Part shown: positions 43,082 through 47,477 of the stretch, piece by piece
Numbering within the stretch: position 1 is the stretch's first letter
How the letters are laid out: every line of letters begins with the position of its first letter
Assembly: GCF_000963925.1 (NCBI RefSeq)
Contig: NZ_BAMV01000007.1
Coordinates: 62,001-126,000, forward strand
Direction: 5' to 3'
DNA from: Acetobacter cibinongensis
GTDB taxonomy: Bacteria > Pseudomonadota > Alphaproteobacteria > Acetobacterales > Acetobacteraceae
DNA: 64,000 bases
Notes under the pieces: model-generated
What the model saw: the letters and a program-made list of their open reading frames with translations, nothing else
The model's database searches: none
Told to the model about the DNA's origin: nothing
Position numbers and translations under genes: made by a program

Positions 43082-43630
43082 TTAGGGCTGATCCGCTTTG
43101 GCTGGCGCTGGCGGGGCAGCGTTCTCTTTGCCTGCGGCGTCCTTGTTGGCGCGGGTCAGGGTGTCCGTCACGGAGAAAATGAATTTGCTGAGCAACTGCT
43201 CAAGGCTGATGGCCCCCTGGGTCTGGTTTAGCGCTGCACCAGGTTTCAGGTTGGTCTCATCCCCACCGGGGGAGAGGGCAATATACTTGCCGCCAAGCAG
43301 GCTATCACTGGTGATGATGGCGGCACTATCCGTTGGCAGTTTGATGTCTGGCCGCACGGTAAACGTGACTTCTGCTTTATAGGTCGCGGGGTTTACGCGT
43401 TCATCCGTTACCTGCCCTACGGTTACACCGGCAAGCCGTACATCGGACCCCACACCCAAGCCATCAATATGGGCAAAACTGGCATGTAAGGGGTAGCCGG
43501 TGCTGTCCGTCTTGCGCCCCTCACCCACAATGGCGGCAACCAGCATAAGAACAAGACCCAGAAGAACCACCACACCCGTGATGAGTTCCGCCATATTCCG
43601 CCGTGCTGGTGCCGTTGTTACTGAAGACAT
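43082..43630 (-). CDS. mlaD: MlaD-like MCE domain protein (phospholipid transport)
   Basis: A 182-residue substrate-binding component of the Mla ABC transporter for retrograde phospholipid transport. One N-terminal transmembrane helix (ELITGVVVLLGLVLMLVAAI) anchors the MCE domain (residues of about 40-125: YPLHASFAHIDGLGVGSDVRLAGVTVGQV, then LPTDSAAIITSDSLLGGKYIAL). A C-terminal Ala/Lys-rich tail follows. ATG 43630 is used; GTG four codons upstream is also possible. mlaA and mlaC lie 14 kb away, and the ATPase and permease genes are not in the window. Confidence 0.9.
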   Translation of the reverse strand: MSSVTTAPARRNMAELITGVVVLLGLVLMLVAAIVGEGRKTDSTGYPLHASFAHIDGLGVGSDVRLAGVTVGQVTDERVNPATYKAEVTFTVRPDIKLPTDSAAIITSDSLLGGKYIALSPGGDETNLKPGAALNQTQGAISLEQLLSKFIFSVTDTLTRANKDAAGKENAAPPAPAKADQP

Positions 43631-43685
43631 ATGCCTGTGCACTCCCTGTGTCAGGACACACCTTTAGCAGGGAACGGGTTTCAGA

Positions 43686-44054
43686 TCACGCCTCTGGTGT
43701 CCAAGATTCGTAATCTTGTGCCACGGGGCGTTTCTGGTGTGTATTATAAGGACTGCCAGGTGGCCTATAGGCCTGCGGTGTGCCGGTAAGGTTGGGCTGG
43801 TGCGGCAACTGCCACGGCTTACGTTCCTCTGCCGGAATGGGGGCATCCAGCGTGTGGTGCAGCCAGCCCCACCACTCTGCCGGTACGGCTGAGGGGTCTT
43901 CCCCTTTCAGGTAGATCACCCATCGCTCGGGCCGGTCCATCCCGCCGCCGCGCCGGGCGCGACCAGTCGATTCGTAATAACAGCGCCCCTGGCCATCCTG
44001 ACCAACCAGACGCCCCTTGCGGCGGGTGTAAAGCCACGTTCCCAAATTTGCCAT
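43686..44054 (-). CDS. NADH:ubiquinone oxidoreductase accessory subunit NDUFA12 family
   Basis: A 122-residue homologue of the complex I supernumerary subunit B17.2/NDUFA12. The family motif is clear: GTWLYTRRKGRLVGQDGQGRCYYE, then RWVIYLKGEDPSAVPAEWWGWLHHTLDAP. The C-terminal region is Pro-rich and ends in SWTPEA. Alphaproteobacteria keep this subunit, which supports that placement. It heads the group leading into mlaD, a common order in the class. Confidence 0.93.
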   Translation of the reverse strand: MANLGTWLYTRRKGRLVGQDGQGRCYYESTGRARRGGGMDRPERWVIYLKGEDPSAVPAEWWGWLHHTLDAPIPAEERKPWQLPHQPNLTGTPQAYRPPGSPYNTHQKRPVAQDYESWTPEA

Positions 44055-44235: not shown

Positions 44236-45795
44236 ATGACAAGAGCCAGACGCCATTGGAGTGGTGTGCTCATGAGCACACTACAGGCCGCAGCAGACCC
44301 GGATGCGCCATGCCGCTCCGTAACGCTGCCCGCAGAGTGGGACGCCGAAGCTGCCGCCGCGCTGGCGCAGCTTGTTCCGGGAACCGAGTCCATTGACCTC
44401 GGGCGCACAGCATCACGCTGGGTGGACGCGCTGGCGCAGGATGACGCCATGGCGCGCTCTCTCACATGGCTGCTGCTTATGCGGCAGGCCGCCCCGACAG
44501 AGGGCGTGTGGTCCTGCGCGTTTGACCGCCCCCCAGGCTTTAGTGTGAATCTGGCGGCCTTTGTCACCCCCGGCGAAGGCTTTGGCGCAGAAACTTTTGT
44601 GGCAGCCCTCCGCCTGATCAGCCGCGTTTTACGTGAAACAGCCAGCATACGGGCTGACCAGCGTAATGGTGAGTTGCCACTACCCGGCCTGTTTACAGCC
44701 GTACCGCCCACCACGCCGCCCCAAACGGAGCCTGCTGGCGATGCACCGCCAGCCGCAGCTCTTGCAGGCAGCATTCTCCTGACCAATCTGGACGCCTGCC
44801 TGGCAGGCGTTGGTCTGGATTATGACAGTGAGGACGGACGCGCTGCCGCCTGCGCCATTGCCGCGCTGGCAACCCTGACCGCCCATTGCGGATGCGGGCC
44901 GGACACCCTTCCCCTTCCCCCCGTGCGCACGGTTCTGCCCGGACTGGGCGAGACATTGCGCACGGTCTGGAACGAGGCCGCCGTTGAAACAGAGACCCCT
45001 CTGGCCCTGATTGAGACCGGATTTTCCAGCTCCAGCGCTGTGGACGGGGTATTGGGGGTAGAAGCCTGCGGTCTGGCGCCAGTCTTCTCCCTTCTGCGGC
45101 CAGATGGTTCACTGGCCCAAAGCACATTGTGCAGGCTGGATGCCCGTGGGTTTACGGCTGAAACCGCGCTGGCCGCTGCGCTGGCGGGGGAAGACGTATT
45201 GCCTCTGCCCGGCGCCACCGCCCACATGGCCATGTACCGCGCCTTGAGCGGCTTTGTTGACCAGCTTCCCGCACGGCCGGACCCGGCAGCACAGCCCCTT
45301 AACCGCAAGCTGGAGCGCGGTATGCGCCGCGCCCTGCCACACCGGCATGGTGGCTTTACCCAGAAAACGACTATTGGCGGCCACCGCCTGTTCCTCCGCA
45401 CCGGGGAATATGATGATGGCACGTTAGGCGAACTCTCCCTGACCCCTACGCGGGAGAGTTCCATGGTCAAAGGGTTGATGGACAGCTTTAGCGAGGCCGT
45501 CAGTATTGGCCTGCAATATGGCGCACCGCTTGAGGAATTTGTGAACAGCTTTGCCTATTCCTGCTTTGGCCCGGCTGGCACAGTGGAGGGAGACCCCGTA
45601 GCCACCTACGCAACCTCCATGCTGGATTACGCCTTCCGGGCGCTGTCGGAAGCCTATCTGGGCAATAAGCTGCCCGATGGCCCGCATGAAGACGAGCAAA
45701 TGGAACCAGACCCACTGTTACCCCTTGATTTACCCGGCGATGAAGGCAACCCTCCATCCCGCACACGGGGCAGCCTGCGTCTGGTTGTCAGCTAA
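44236..45795 (+). CDS. Degenerate B12-dependent ribonucleotide reductase (NrdJ) homologue
   Basis: A 519-residue protein with patches of class II reductase similarity in the right order but without the catalytic core. NLAAFVTPGEGFGAETFVAALRLI (105-128) recalls the CNLASLNL segment; GLDYDSEDGRA (193-203), VLGVEACGLAPVFSLLRPDG (272-291) and LFLRTGEYDDGTLGELSL (385-402) follow. The best part is 370-477 (EAVSIGLQYGAPLEEFVNSF, then SMLDYAFRALSEAYLG). Where the active site has NPCxE, the protein reads WSCAF; no N-terminal half or C-terminal zinc cysteines are seen. A paralogue reduced to a structural or regulatory role is likely. ATG 44272 is an alternative start. Confidence 0.75.
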   Translation: MTRARRHWSGVLMSTLQAAADPDAPCRSVTLPAEWDAEAAAALAQLVPGTESIDLGRTASRWVDALAQDDAMARSLTWLLLMRQAAPTEGVWSCAFDRPPGFSVNLAAFVTPGEGFGAETFVAALRLISRVLRETASIRADQRNGELPLPGLFTAVPPTTPPQTEPAGDAPPAAALAGSILLTNLDACLAGVGLDYDSEDGRAAACAIAALATLTAHCGCGPDTLPLPPVRTVLPGLGETLRTVWNEAAVETETPLALIETGFSSSSAVDGVLGVEACGLAPVFSLLRPDGSLAQSTLCRLDARGFTAETALAAALAGEDVLPLPGATAHMAMYRALSGFVDQLPARPDPAAQPLNRKLERGMRRALPHRHGGFTQKTTIGGHRLFLRTGEYDDGTLGELSLTPTRESSMVKGLMDSFSEAVSIGLQYGAPLEEFVNSFAYSCFGPAGTVEGDPVATYATSMLDYAFRALSEAYLGNKLPDGPHEDEQMEPDPLLPLDLPGDEGNPPSRTRGSLRLVVS

Positions 45796-45840: not shown

Positions 45841-46308
45841 ATGAGCACAACTCCCGACTCCCGCCTTGCCGCACTGGGCATCACGCTGCCAACACCAGCA
45901 GCCCCGGTTGCCAACTATGTGGCCTGCGTGCAGACCGGCTCACTTCTGGTCGTATCTGGCCAGTTACCCTTGGCTGATGGCAGCCTGTTTGCCACTGGCA
46001 AGCTGGGTGGCGCTGTTTCTGTTGAAACCGCGGTGGAAGCTGCGCGCTACAGCATGATTAACGTGATTGCGCAGGTTAAAGCCGCATTGGGTGGTGACCT
46101 GAGCCGCGTTAAGCGCGTTGTGCGTCTGGGTGGCTTTATTGCCTGCACCCCCGACTTTACGGCGCATGCAGCCGTCATGAACGGTGCGTCCGACCTAGCC
46201 GTTGCCGTATTTGGTGACGCTGGCCGCCATGCACGCTCAACCGTTGGCGTACCGTCTTTGCCGCTTGACGCTCCGGTTGAAGTGGAAGGATTGTTTGAGA
46301 TCGCCTGA
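45841..46308 (+). CDS. RidA family protein (YjgF/YER057c)
   Basis: A 155-residue member of the RidA-like family with the longer form. The fold segments are VANYVACVQTGSLLVVSGQLP, then AARYSMINVIAQVKAALG, and RSTVGVPSLPLDAPVEVEG. True RidA enzymes deaminate reactive enamine/imine intermediates and use an arginine near the C-terminus. Here Arg in HARSTVGV is a candidate. A good AAGGAG site lies seven bases before ATG. The next gene follows 20 bases on. Confidence 0.9.
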   Translation: MSTTPDSRLAALGITLPTPAAPVANYVACVQTGSLLVVSGQLPLADGSLFATGKLGGAVSVETAVEAARYSMINVIAQVKAALGGDLSRVKRVVRLGGFIACTPDFTAHAAVMNGASDLAVAVFGDAGRHARSTVGVPSLPLDAPVEVEGLFEIA

Positions 46309-46328
46309 ACTGCACCAAGGAATGACCC

Positions 46329-47477
46329 ATGCCTGACTGGTCAATAAAGCTCCATGATGGCATTCATTCCCTAGGCCAGACAGCGTGGGATGCCTGCGCC
46401 GGAGCTGACAACCCGTTTGTCAGCTTTGCCTTTCTTTCCGCACTGGAAGACAGTGGTTCTGTCTCACGCCGGACAGGGTGGTTGCCCCAGTATGTGGCGC
46501 TCCATACCTCGGACGGCCAGCTAGCAGCTGTCTGCCCCGCGTATTTAAAAGGCCACTCCTGGGGCGAATATGTGTTCGATCAGGGGTGGGCGCGCGCGTT
46601 TGAGGCTGCGGGCGGCTCCTACTACCCCAAACTTCAGGTTGCCGTACCGTTTACGCCTGCCCCCGGCCCGCGCCTGCTTTTGCACCCGGAAGCCCCGCCC
46701 GAAACAGCGTCCGTACTGGCGGATGCCTTGCGGCAGCTCTGTGGGGATCTCCAGCTTTCTTCCGCGCATGTGACCTTCTGTACAGAGCAGGACAGTGCTT
46801 TACTGGCCCAGCGCGGCTGGCTGCCACGCCTTGGCGTGCAGTATCACTGGCATAATCAGGGCTATCAGACCTTTGATGATTTTCTGGCCGCCTTATCGTC
46901 CCGCAAACGCAAGGTTCTAAAACGCGAACGACGGGACGCCAACGCTGCTGGCCTGACCTTTGAGACCCTGCGTGGGCCAGAAGTTACCCGCGCAGACTGG
47001 GATGCCTTTTACCGATTTTACGAAAACACCATAGACCGCAAATGGGGCAGCGCTTACCTGACGCCCAGCTTTTTCCCGCTCCTGTCTGACCGGCTGGGGG
47101 ACAAGGTCGTGTTGATGGTCGCGCGTAAGGAGGACCAGCCTGTTGCCGCCGCCCTCAACCTGCTGGGCGCAGACACGTTGTATGGCCGCAACTGGGGCTG
47201 CGTGGGAGACTGGCCGTTCCTGCATTTTGAATTGTGCTATTACCGCGCCATAGACTTTGCCATCAGCCACGGGCTGAAACGTGTTGAGGCTGGAGCGCAG
47301 GGTGAGCACAAAATCCAGCGCGGCTATATCCCCAGTCTGACGCATTCAGCGCACTGGCTGCAAAACCGCTCATTTTACGCAAGTGTTGCCAGTTTTCTGG
47401 AGCAAGAACGCGCCGCCATGCAGGCAGAGGTTACGGCTTTGAGCGAGCTTTCACCTTATAAGCAGGATACTGAGTAA
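46329..47477 (+). CDS. GNAT-fold protein of the DUF482 family
   Basis: A 382-residue cytoplasmic protein. Double GNAT-like folds are typical of DUF482 (peptidoglycan-bridge-type acyltransferase relatives). Indicative segments are SFAFLSALEDSGSVSRRTGWLP, YFKLQV-like YYPKLQVAVPFTPAPGPRLL, LSSRKRKVLKRERRDA, and the C-terminal FELCYYRAIDFAISHGLKRVEAGAQGEHKIQRG. The acceptor is unknown. It is 20 bases after the RidA gene on the same strand and likely cotranscribed. Confidence 0.85.
   Translation: MPDWSIKLHDGIHSLGQTAWDACAGADNPFVSFAFLSALEDSGSVSRRTGWLPQYVALHTSDGQLAAVCPAYLKGHSWGEYVFDQGWARAFEAAGGSYYPKLQVAVPFTPAPGPRLLLHPEAPPETASVLADALRQLCGDLQLSSAHVTFCTEQDSALLAQRGWLPRLGVQYHWHNQGYQTFDDFLAALSSRKRKVLKRERRDANAAGLTFETLRGPEVTRADWDAFYRFYENTIDRKWGSAYLTPSFFPLLSDRLGDKVVLMVARKEDQPVAAALNLLGADTLYGRNWGCVGDWPFLHFELCYYRAIDFAISHGLKRVEAGAQGEHKIQRGYIPSLTHSAHWLQNRSFYASVASFLEQERAAMQAEVTALSELSPYKQDTE

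Follow-up and report, generated by a model that had tools for sequence, protein, structure and literature searches.

What does a protein with the C-terminal domain of a B12-dependent, class II ribonucleotide reductase (RNR) do in a genome whose RNR genes are of class I only? The question is raised by an uninterrupted ATG frame of 519 codons found at 44236..45795 (+) in the window, i.e., the whole stretch of 64,000 nucleotides from Acetobacter cibinongensis that was analyzed, in a genome whose closest named relative is A. orientalis (86% protein identity). The earlier note described this gene as an eroded paralogue of the class II reductase NrdJ. The sole Pfam match in the 519-aa protein is the TSCPD domain (residues 376-474, E 2.5e-9; PF12637 score of 37.7 bits for a cut-off of 22.8), and the NCBIfam models of B12-dependent RNRs match residues 361-477 (E 2e-42). 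Pfam detects neither the complete ten-stranded barrel (PF02867) nor, at E<=1, the N-terminal class II domain (PF08471), for which hhalign gives a weak collinear match (E 0.0011-0.01). A phmmer search of PDB sequences with the 519-aa protein returned chance matches only, and a promoter and terminator scan remained at chance level. The gene and its parts are laid out as follows.

44236..45795, + strand: CDS of a predicted non-catalytic NrdJ-derived protein of 519 aa (frame, Pfam, NCBIfam, profile alignment, omega)
44245..44526, + strand: residues 4-97, left over from the N-terminal domain of NrdJ and containing WSCAF (92-96) (hhalign, E 0.0011-0.01)
44524..44532, + strand: site at which the flanks of the central deletion meet, NrdJ ~160 to ~486 being gone (boundary at NrdJ 486-490 in the Acetobacteraceae lineages tested)
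44530..45300, + strand: residues 99-355, what is left of the second RNR half-barrel after some internal losses (hhalign; RNR folds as top structural matches)
45025..45048, + strand: SSSSAVDG, standing where NrdJ has the substrate phosphate-binding loop APTGTIG, which is thus lost (motif count, alignments)
45325..45669, + strand: TSCPD (IscU-like) domain, residues 364-478 (Pfam PF12637, alignment with NrdJ)
45670..45792, + strand: tail with a PLLPLDLP...LRLV motif, in place of the NrdJ zinc/redox tail (family alignment)

Profiles of 64 family members and of 19 full-length alphaproteobacterial NrdJ proteins were compared. Residues 99-486 are collinear with NrdJ 486-1090 (profile-profile alignment by hhalign, probability 100, E 1.6e-64), and residues 4-94 align to NrdJ 12-159, weakly when taken alone (hhalign, E 0.01). 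Short viral NrdJ fragments in the alignment placed the N-terminal and barrel pieces wrongly, and contiguous C-terminal halves of NrdJ were for this reason used instead. Five segments were also tested singly, and each scored highest in NrdJ at the position expected from collinearity or next to it, the barrel-remnant segment M1 alone reaching E 1.4e-14 (hhalign), while reversed-profile controls of these tests gave no match. Hence, the class II segments that the earlier note had recognized, in order, at residues 105-128, 193-203, 272-291, and 370-477 were correctly placed according to the profile alignment, and the descent from a class II reductase is backed by profile collinearity and by the segment tests with their reversed controls. 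The N-terminal half, said to be missing, is so only in part: the first half of the barrel (NrdJ ~160-486) is absent, whereas the N-terminal domain is partly present. We hold it very likely that the gene descends from the class II RNR gene nrdJ and now codes for a pseudoenzyme.

A first structure model, derived from 13 Acetobacter sequences, was unusable (pLDDT 36). The second AlphaFold model is of low confidence (pLDDT 53), its better regions being the half-barrel and the TSCPD domain. Foldseek searches with this second model returned RNRs as top matches, the first of which was the class II enzyme of Rhodobacter sphaeroides (7b9p), and also SufU, for TSCPD. VIA-align comparison of the model with 7b9p gave a Z of 10.3 over 221 residues (4.3 Å, 21% identity). 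In the alignment on a class II structure that had been suggested, the model thus fits 7b9p, which supports an RNR-like fold but is no independent proof of it, because the alignment behind this model of pLDDT 53 contained viral NrdJ rows.

The central deletion (NrdJ ~160-486) comprises the first half-barrel, the effector-binding part and the finger loop with NPCSE. The three active-site cysteines, the Asn and the Glu of NrdJ are all absent with this block; the active-site Cys of HACF lies in the deleted block, and the Cys of CNLAS aligns to P99. Neither NPCxE nor HACF occurs in any family member (0/64 for each), and CNL was found in one of the 64 (L090). WSCAF (92-96), previously taken for an altered NPCxE loop, has its counterpart elsewhere, in the QWFNT of the NrdJ N-terminal domain (NrdJ 156-160), and NPCSE (NrdJ 473) falls within the deletion rather than being mutated. 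On the other hand, the reported absence of zinc cysteines was borne out, as the 519-aa protein ends after TSCPD and has no CxxC zinc tail. Alignment with NrdJ revealed no intact catalytic cysteine set, and the loss of catalysis proposed in the earlier note agrees with the missing NPCxE and the deleted active-site block. Judging from its sequence, the protein should be catalytically dead.

These losses also bear on nucleotide binding. In RNRs, the PTGT loop binds the substrate phosphates, and in solved structures the first half-barrel holds the specificity site. PTGT is present in 18/19 NrdJ proteins, whereas none of the 64 short members has PT[GA][TS]I. Sensing of nucleotides or deoxynucleotides, a role considered in the earlier note and in keeping with descent from a nucleotide-binding enzyme, is disfavored because the substrate-phosphate loop has been lost in 64/64 members; the half-barrel that would carry the specificity site is deleted and there is no ATP-cone, so that such a role appears very improbable.

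The gene and the NDUFA12-MlaD-DUF2155 genes are divergently oriented in most Acetobacteraceae, and a RidA and a FemAB-like gene lie downstream. The corresponding neighbors in the window are the following.

43082..43642, - strand: MlaD-family protein, conserved neighborhood (Pfam PF02470, synteny)
43686..44054, - strand: NDUFA12, divergent neighbor marking the ancestral nrdJ locus (Pfam PF05071, synteny)
45841..46308, + strand: RidA/YjgF-family protein, next gene downstream (Pfam PF14588/PF01042, synteny)
46329..47477, + strand: FemAB-like/GNAT protein, second gene downstream (Pfam PF04339, synteny)

Of 20 loci from other alphaproteobacteria, at least 10 have NDUFA12 adjoining a full-length nrdJ. 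Because full-length nrdJ stands at the same NDUFA12 place elsewhere, the remnant is orthologous to nrdJ by position and was eroded in situ. It shares with the long alphaproteobacterial NrdJ (PRK07562; R. sphaeroides 7b9p) its collinearity, a TSCPD domain that is ~52% identical and the NDUFA12-MlaD locus, but, unlike class II NrdJ, it has neither the catalytic residues nor the substrate loop, is ~325 residues short in the barrel and ends without the zinc/redox tail. The proposed paralogy to a catalytic NrdJ does not hold, since the genome has no NrdJ and the gene occupies the nrdJ locus. A whole-genome search for the catalytic enzyme recovered no NrdJ or NrdJa elsewhere in the window genome, which codes for a single TSCPD protein and a single RNR large subunit, the class I NrdA (G000:C103) with its catalytic residues present, plus NrdB. 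The downstream RidA-FemAB-like pair (45841-47477) is also observed in order f9, but nine other alphaproteobacteria showed no such pair close to their full-length nrdJ.

Nearly all Acetobacteraceae carry the remnant. The same losses are found in its orthologues, as the earlier note had suggested might be checked: the deletion boundary at NrdJ 486-490 is common to the window lineage and the four divergent Acetobacteraceae lineages tested, and NPCxE is missing throughout. This points to a single erosion in the ancestor of the Acetobacteraceae, followed by divergence among lineages. The G085 orthologue, in which both TSCPD and the remainder of the second half-barrel are nearly complete behind the same central deletion (536 columns, E 1.5e-62), is a less eroded intermediate, and the Pfam barrel model matches the G085 and g102 orthologues over its second half only. 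Genera g102 and g154, for which the TSCPD search had come up with nothing, lost TSCPD but still have the N-terminal part and the half-barrel; in genus g29, TSCPD is degenerate. The remnant is dispensable in some lineages, because it was cleanly lost from G240 (L199), where the RidA, FemAB-like, MlaD, and NDUFA12 genes are kept, and G170 yielded no member. Most of the TSCPD frames listed for genus g119 measure 760-1069 aa, so that the remnant may be lost genus-wide. Another alphaproteobacterial order, f9 (L184-L187, L111), has nrdJ cut to a 280-aa TSCPD and zinc-ribbon protein. Like the Acetobacteraceae remnant, this protein is what is left of nrdJ at that locus, and the genomes concerned code for class I NrdAB; unlike the remnant, it results from an independent truncation, is nested in the NrdJ clade, and kept the zinc ribbon but no barrel. 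In the TSCPD tree, the f9 proteins, the full-length NrdJ of g110 and the other NrdJ form one group (100/100) that excludes the short Acetobacteraceae forms, the other forks being uncertain because of the few columns.

Selection was estimated as pairwise Nei-Gojobori omega in 13 Acetobacter genomes. The median for the gene is 0.134, against 0.08-0.19 for eight neighbors, and values per part of the protein range from 0.10 to 0.19. TSCPD is the best conserved part (pN 0.088, omega 0.100), the mid-region has an omega of 0.104, and residues 143-174 form a poorly conserved linker. Omega is 0.08-0.25 in other genus-g1 genomes, 0.22-0.27 in g102, 0.12-0.24 in f9, and 0.16-0.37 in g110, the absolute values being rough because dS is near saturation in many pairs. 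The frame is uninterrupted in nearly all sampled genomes, with the exception of G072 (one TGA), and tens of positions are strongly conserved across the 64 members. The view that an intact frame of 519 codons is not that of a simple pseudogene is upheld by the frame and by its omega, and the check for purifying selection gave dN/dS < 1 in each lineage measured. One could still picture a gene in slow decay, not yet dead and retained for historical reasons, given the further loss or degeneration of TSCPD in g102, g154, and g29 and the clean loss in G240; however, neighbor-like omega in every part of the protein, the nearly universal open frame and the conserved positions make this the least credible of the alternatives. 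The substitution pattern indicates that the remnant is kept by purifying selection. Because the catalytic core is lost and the protein is nevertheless kept under selection, it must do something beyond the original chemistry, and a role independent of catalysis, as anticipated in the earlier note, is supported by the lost catalytic residues together with omega.

Could this role reside in TSCPD alone, for example as a metal/Fe-S or oligomerization module, with the rest of the protein as ballast? The domain is the best conserved part, even if its omega is close to that of the mid-region, it is IscU-like (PMC9669993) with SufU among the Foldseek matches, and order f9 independently kept only TSCPD and the zinc ribbon at the same locus. 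Conversely, g102 and g154 kept everything but TSCPD, the g102 gene with the omega given above, and the domain has no cysteine set, C443 being its only Cys (found at that position in 33/64 members). We consider this explanation unlikely, and TSCPD as sole function was rejected in view of the g102 and g154 genes. As different lineages kept different parts, the function is not explained by any one domain alone.

The remnant is retained whichever RNR the cell uses. Most Acetobacteraceae have class I NrdAB; G061 has a different class I NrdA of 927 codons and kept the remnant; and the five genomes of the Acetobacteraceae genus g110 (L114, L116, L118, L121, L122) are without NrdB or any class I RNR: a full-length class II NrdJ coded elsewhere is their sole barrel-type RNR, and 5/5 keep a ~512-aa remnant at the ancestral locus. 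This amounts to RNR-class INDEPENDENCE: the remnant is kept with class I NrdAB, with the 927-codon NrdA, or with class II NrdJ only. In g110, the RNR class seems to have switched back, and several Acetobacteraceae genomes, such as L129 (G054), have a second class II RNR of ~780 codons with TSCPD elsewhere.

This distribution weighs on the idea that the remnant regulates class I NrdAB in trans, as a switch of oligomerization or activity. Several observations would fit: the remnant co-occurs with class I NrdAB in most Acetobacteraceae, as does the truncated TSCPD protein of f9 with class I enzymes; the window NrdA is devoid of ATP-cone, and no known overall-activity switch is evident because the only ATP-cone of the genome sits in a 159-aa NrdR-like frame; and a related cysteine-rich C-terminal domain, that of S. 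nassauensis NrdJ, drives dATP/dGTP-dependent oligomerization (PMC5704485). Yet such a regulator is disfavored because g110 keeps the remnant without any class I enzyme. Likewise, G061 keeps it with a different NrdA, TSCPD is gone from g102 and g154 although their RNR is of class I, and a simple mismatch scan found no NrdR-like box upstream of the remnant gene and one weak match upstream of nrdA. A regulatory role is thus rather unlikely, slightly more so than TSCPD acting alone.

The reading we prefer is that nrdJ lost ~325 codons in frame in an ancestor of the Acetobacteraceae. This took away the first half-barrel, together with the active-site residues, the effector site and the finger loop; the zinc/redox tail disappeared as well, and DNA precursors are now supplied by class I NrdAB. 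The N-terminal domain remnant, the second half-barrel and the IscU-like TSCPD domain would have stayed as a scaffold or adaptor binding a putative protein partner, with no need for a class I RNR and probably without nucleotide binding; this role may be a second function already held by NrdJ at the ancestral locus. Taken as a whole, i.e., an in-place nrdJ descendant that became a pseudoenzyme under selection with an adaptor role independent of RNR class, this explanation is somewhat better than even, whereas the scaffold or adaptor mechanism itself is put forward tentatively, at slightly below even chances. That the alphaproteobacterial class II RNR has a second, RNR-independent function at the nrdJ locus, outliving the enzyme in two lineages that went over to class I (Acetobacteraceae and f9) and persisting in g110 although class II is back at another locus, is conceivable but doubtful.

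The C-terminal domain of class II RNRs has been described as IscU-like, with no role reported (PMC9669993), and in S. nassauensis NrdJ both oligomerization and electron transfer are mediated by the cysteine-rich domain (PMC5704485); the electron-transfer cysteines of that type of domain are absent from the 519-aa protein. Inactive RNR homologues with new functions are known from betaherpesviruses (PMC11772975, PMC5469499). These large-subunit homologues (M45/UL45) are also non-catalytic RNR descendants kept for another function, but unlike the bacterial remnant they are viral, derived from class I, much longer, and act on host signaling. In the literature searched, mostly outside subscription journals, we found no earlier report of a bacterial inactive RNR homologue and nothing relevant on TSCPD or on RNR in Acetobacteraceae or Acetobacter, and the main text of a paper on a Gluconobacter knockout collection mentions neither ribonucleotide nor TSCPD genes. 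If correct, our reading would add a bacterial RNR-derived pseudoenzyme selectively maintained across a family of industrial importance, regardless of the reductase present. Four kinds of genome form a natural test set: those combining the remnant with class I, those combining it with class II, those in which TSCPD is lost, and those that lack the gene. Remnants of this kind can mislead annotation, because the NCBI models of B12-dependent RNRs match their C-terminus.

NrdJb of the split class II RNRs (Pseudomonas type; TSCPD and zinc finger) is likewise a TSCPD protein apart from a complete barrel. However, NrdJb acts with NrdJa, whereas the 519-aa protein has no NrdJa in its genome, no zinc finger, and retains barrel remnants. 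Among the viral IMG/VR contigs (L132, L134-L147), many have short, NrdJb-like TSCPD frames of 208-267 aa, and others code for full-length NrdJ of 895-1685 aa.
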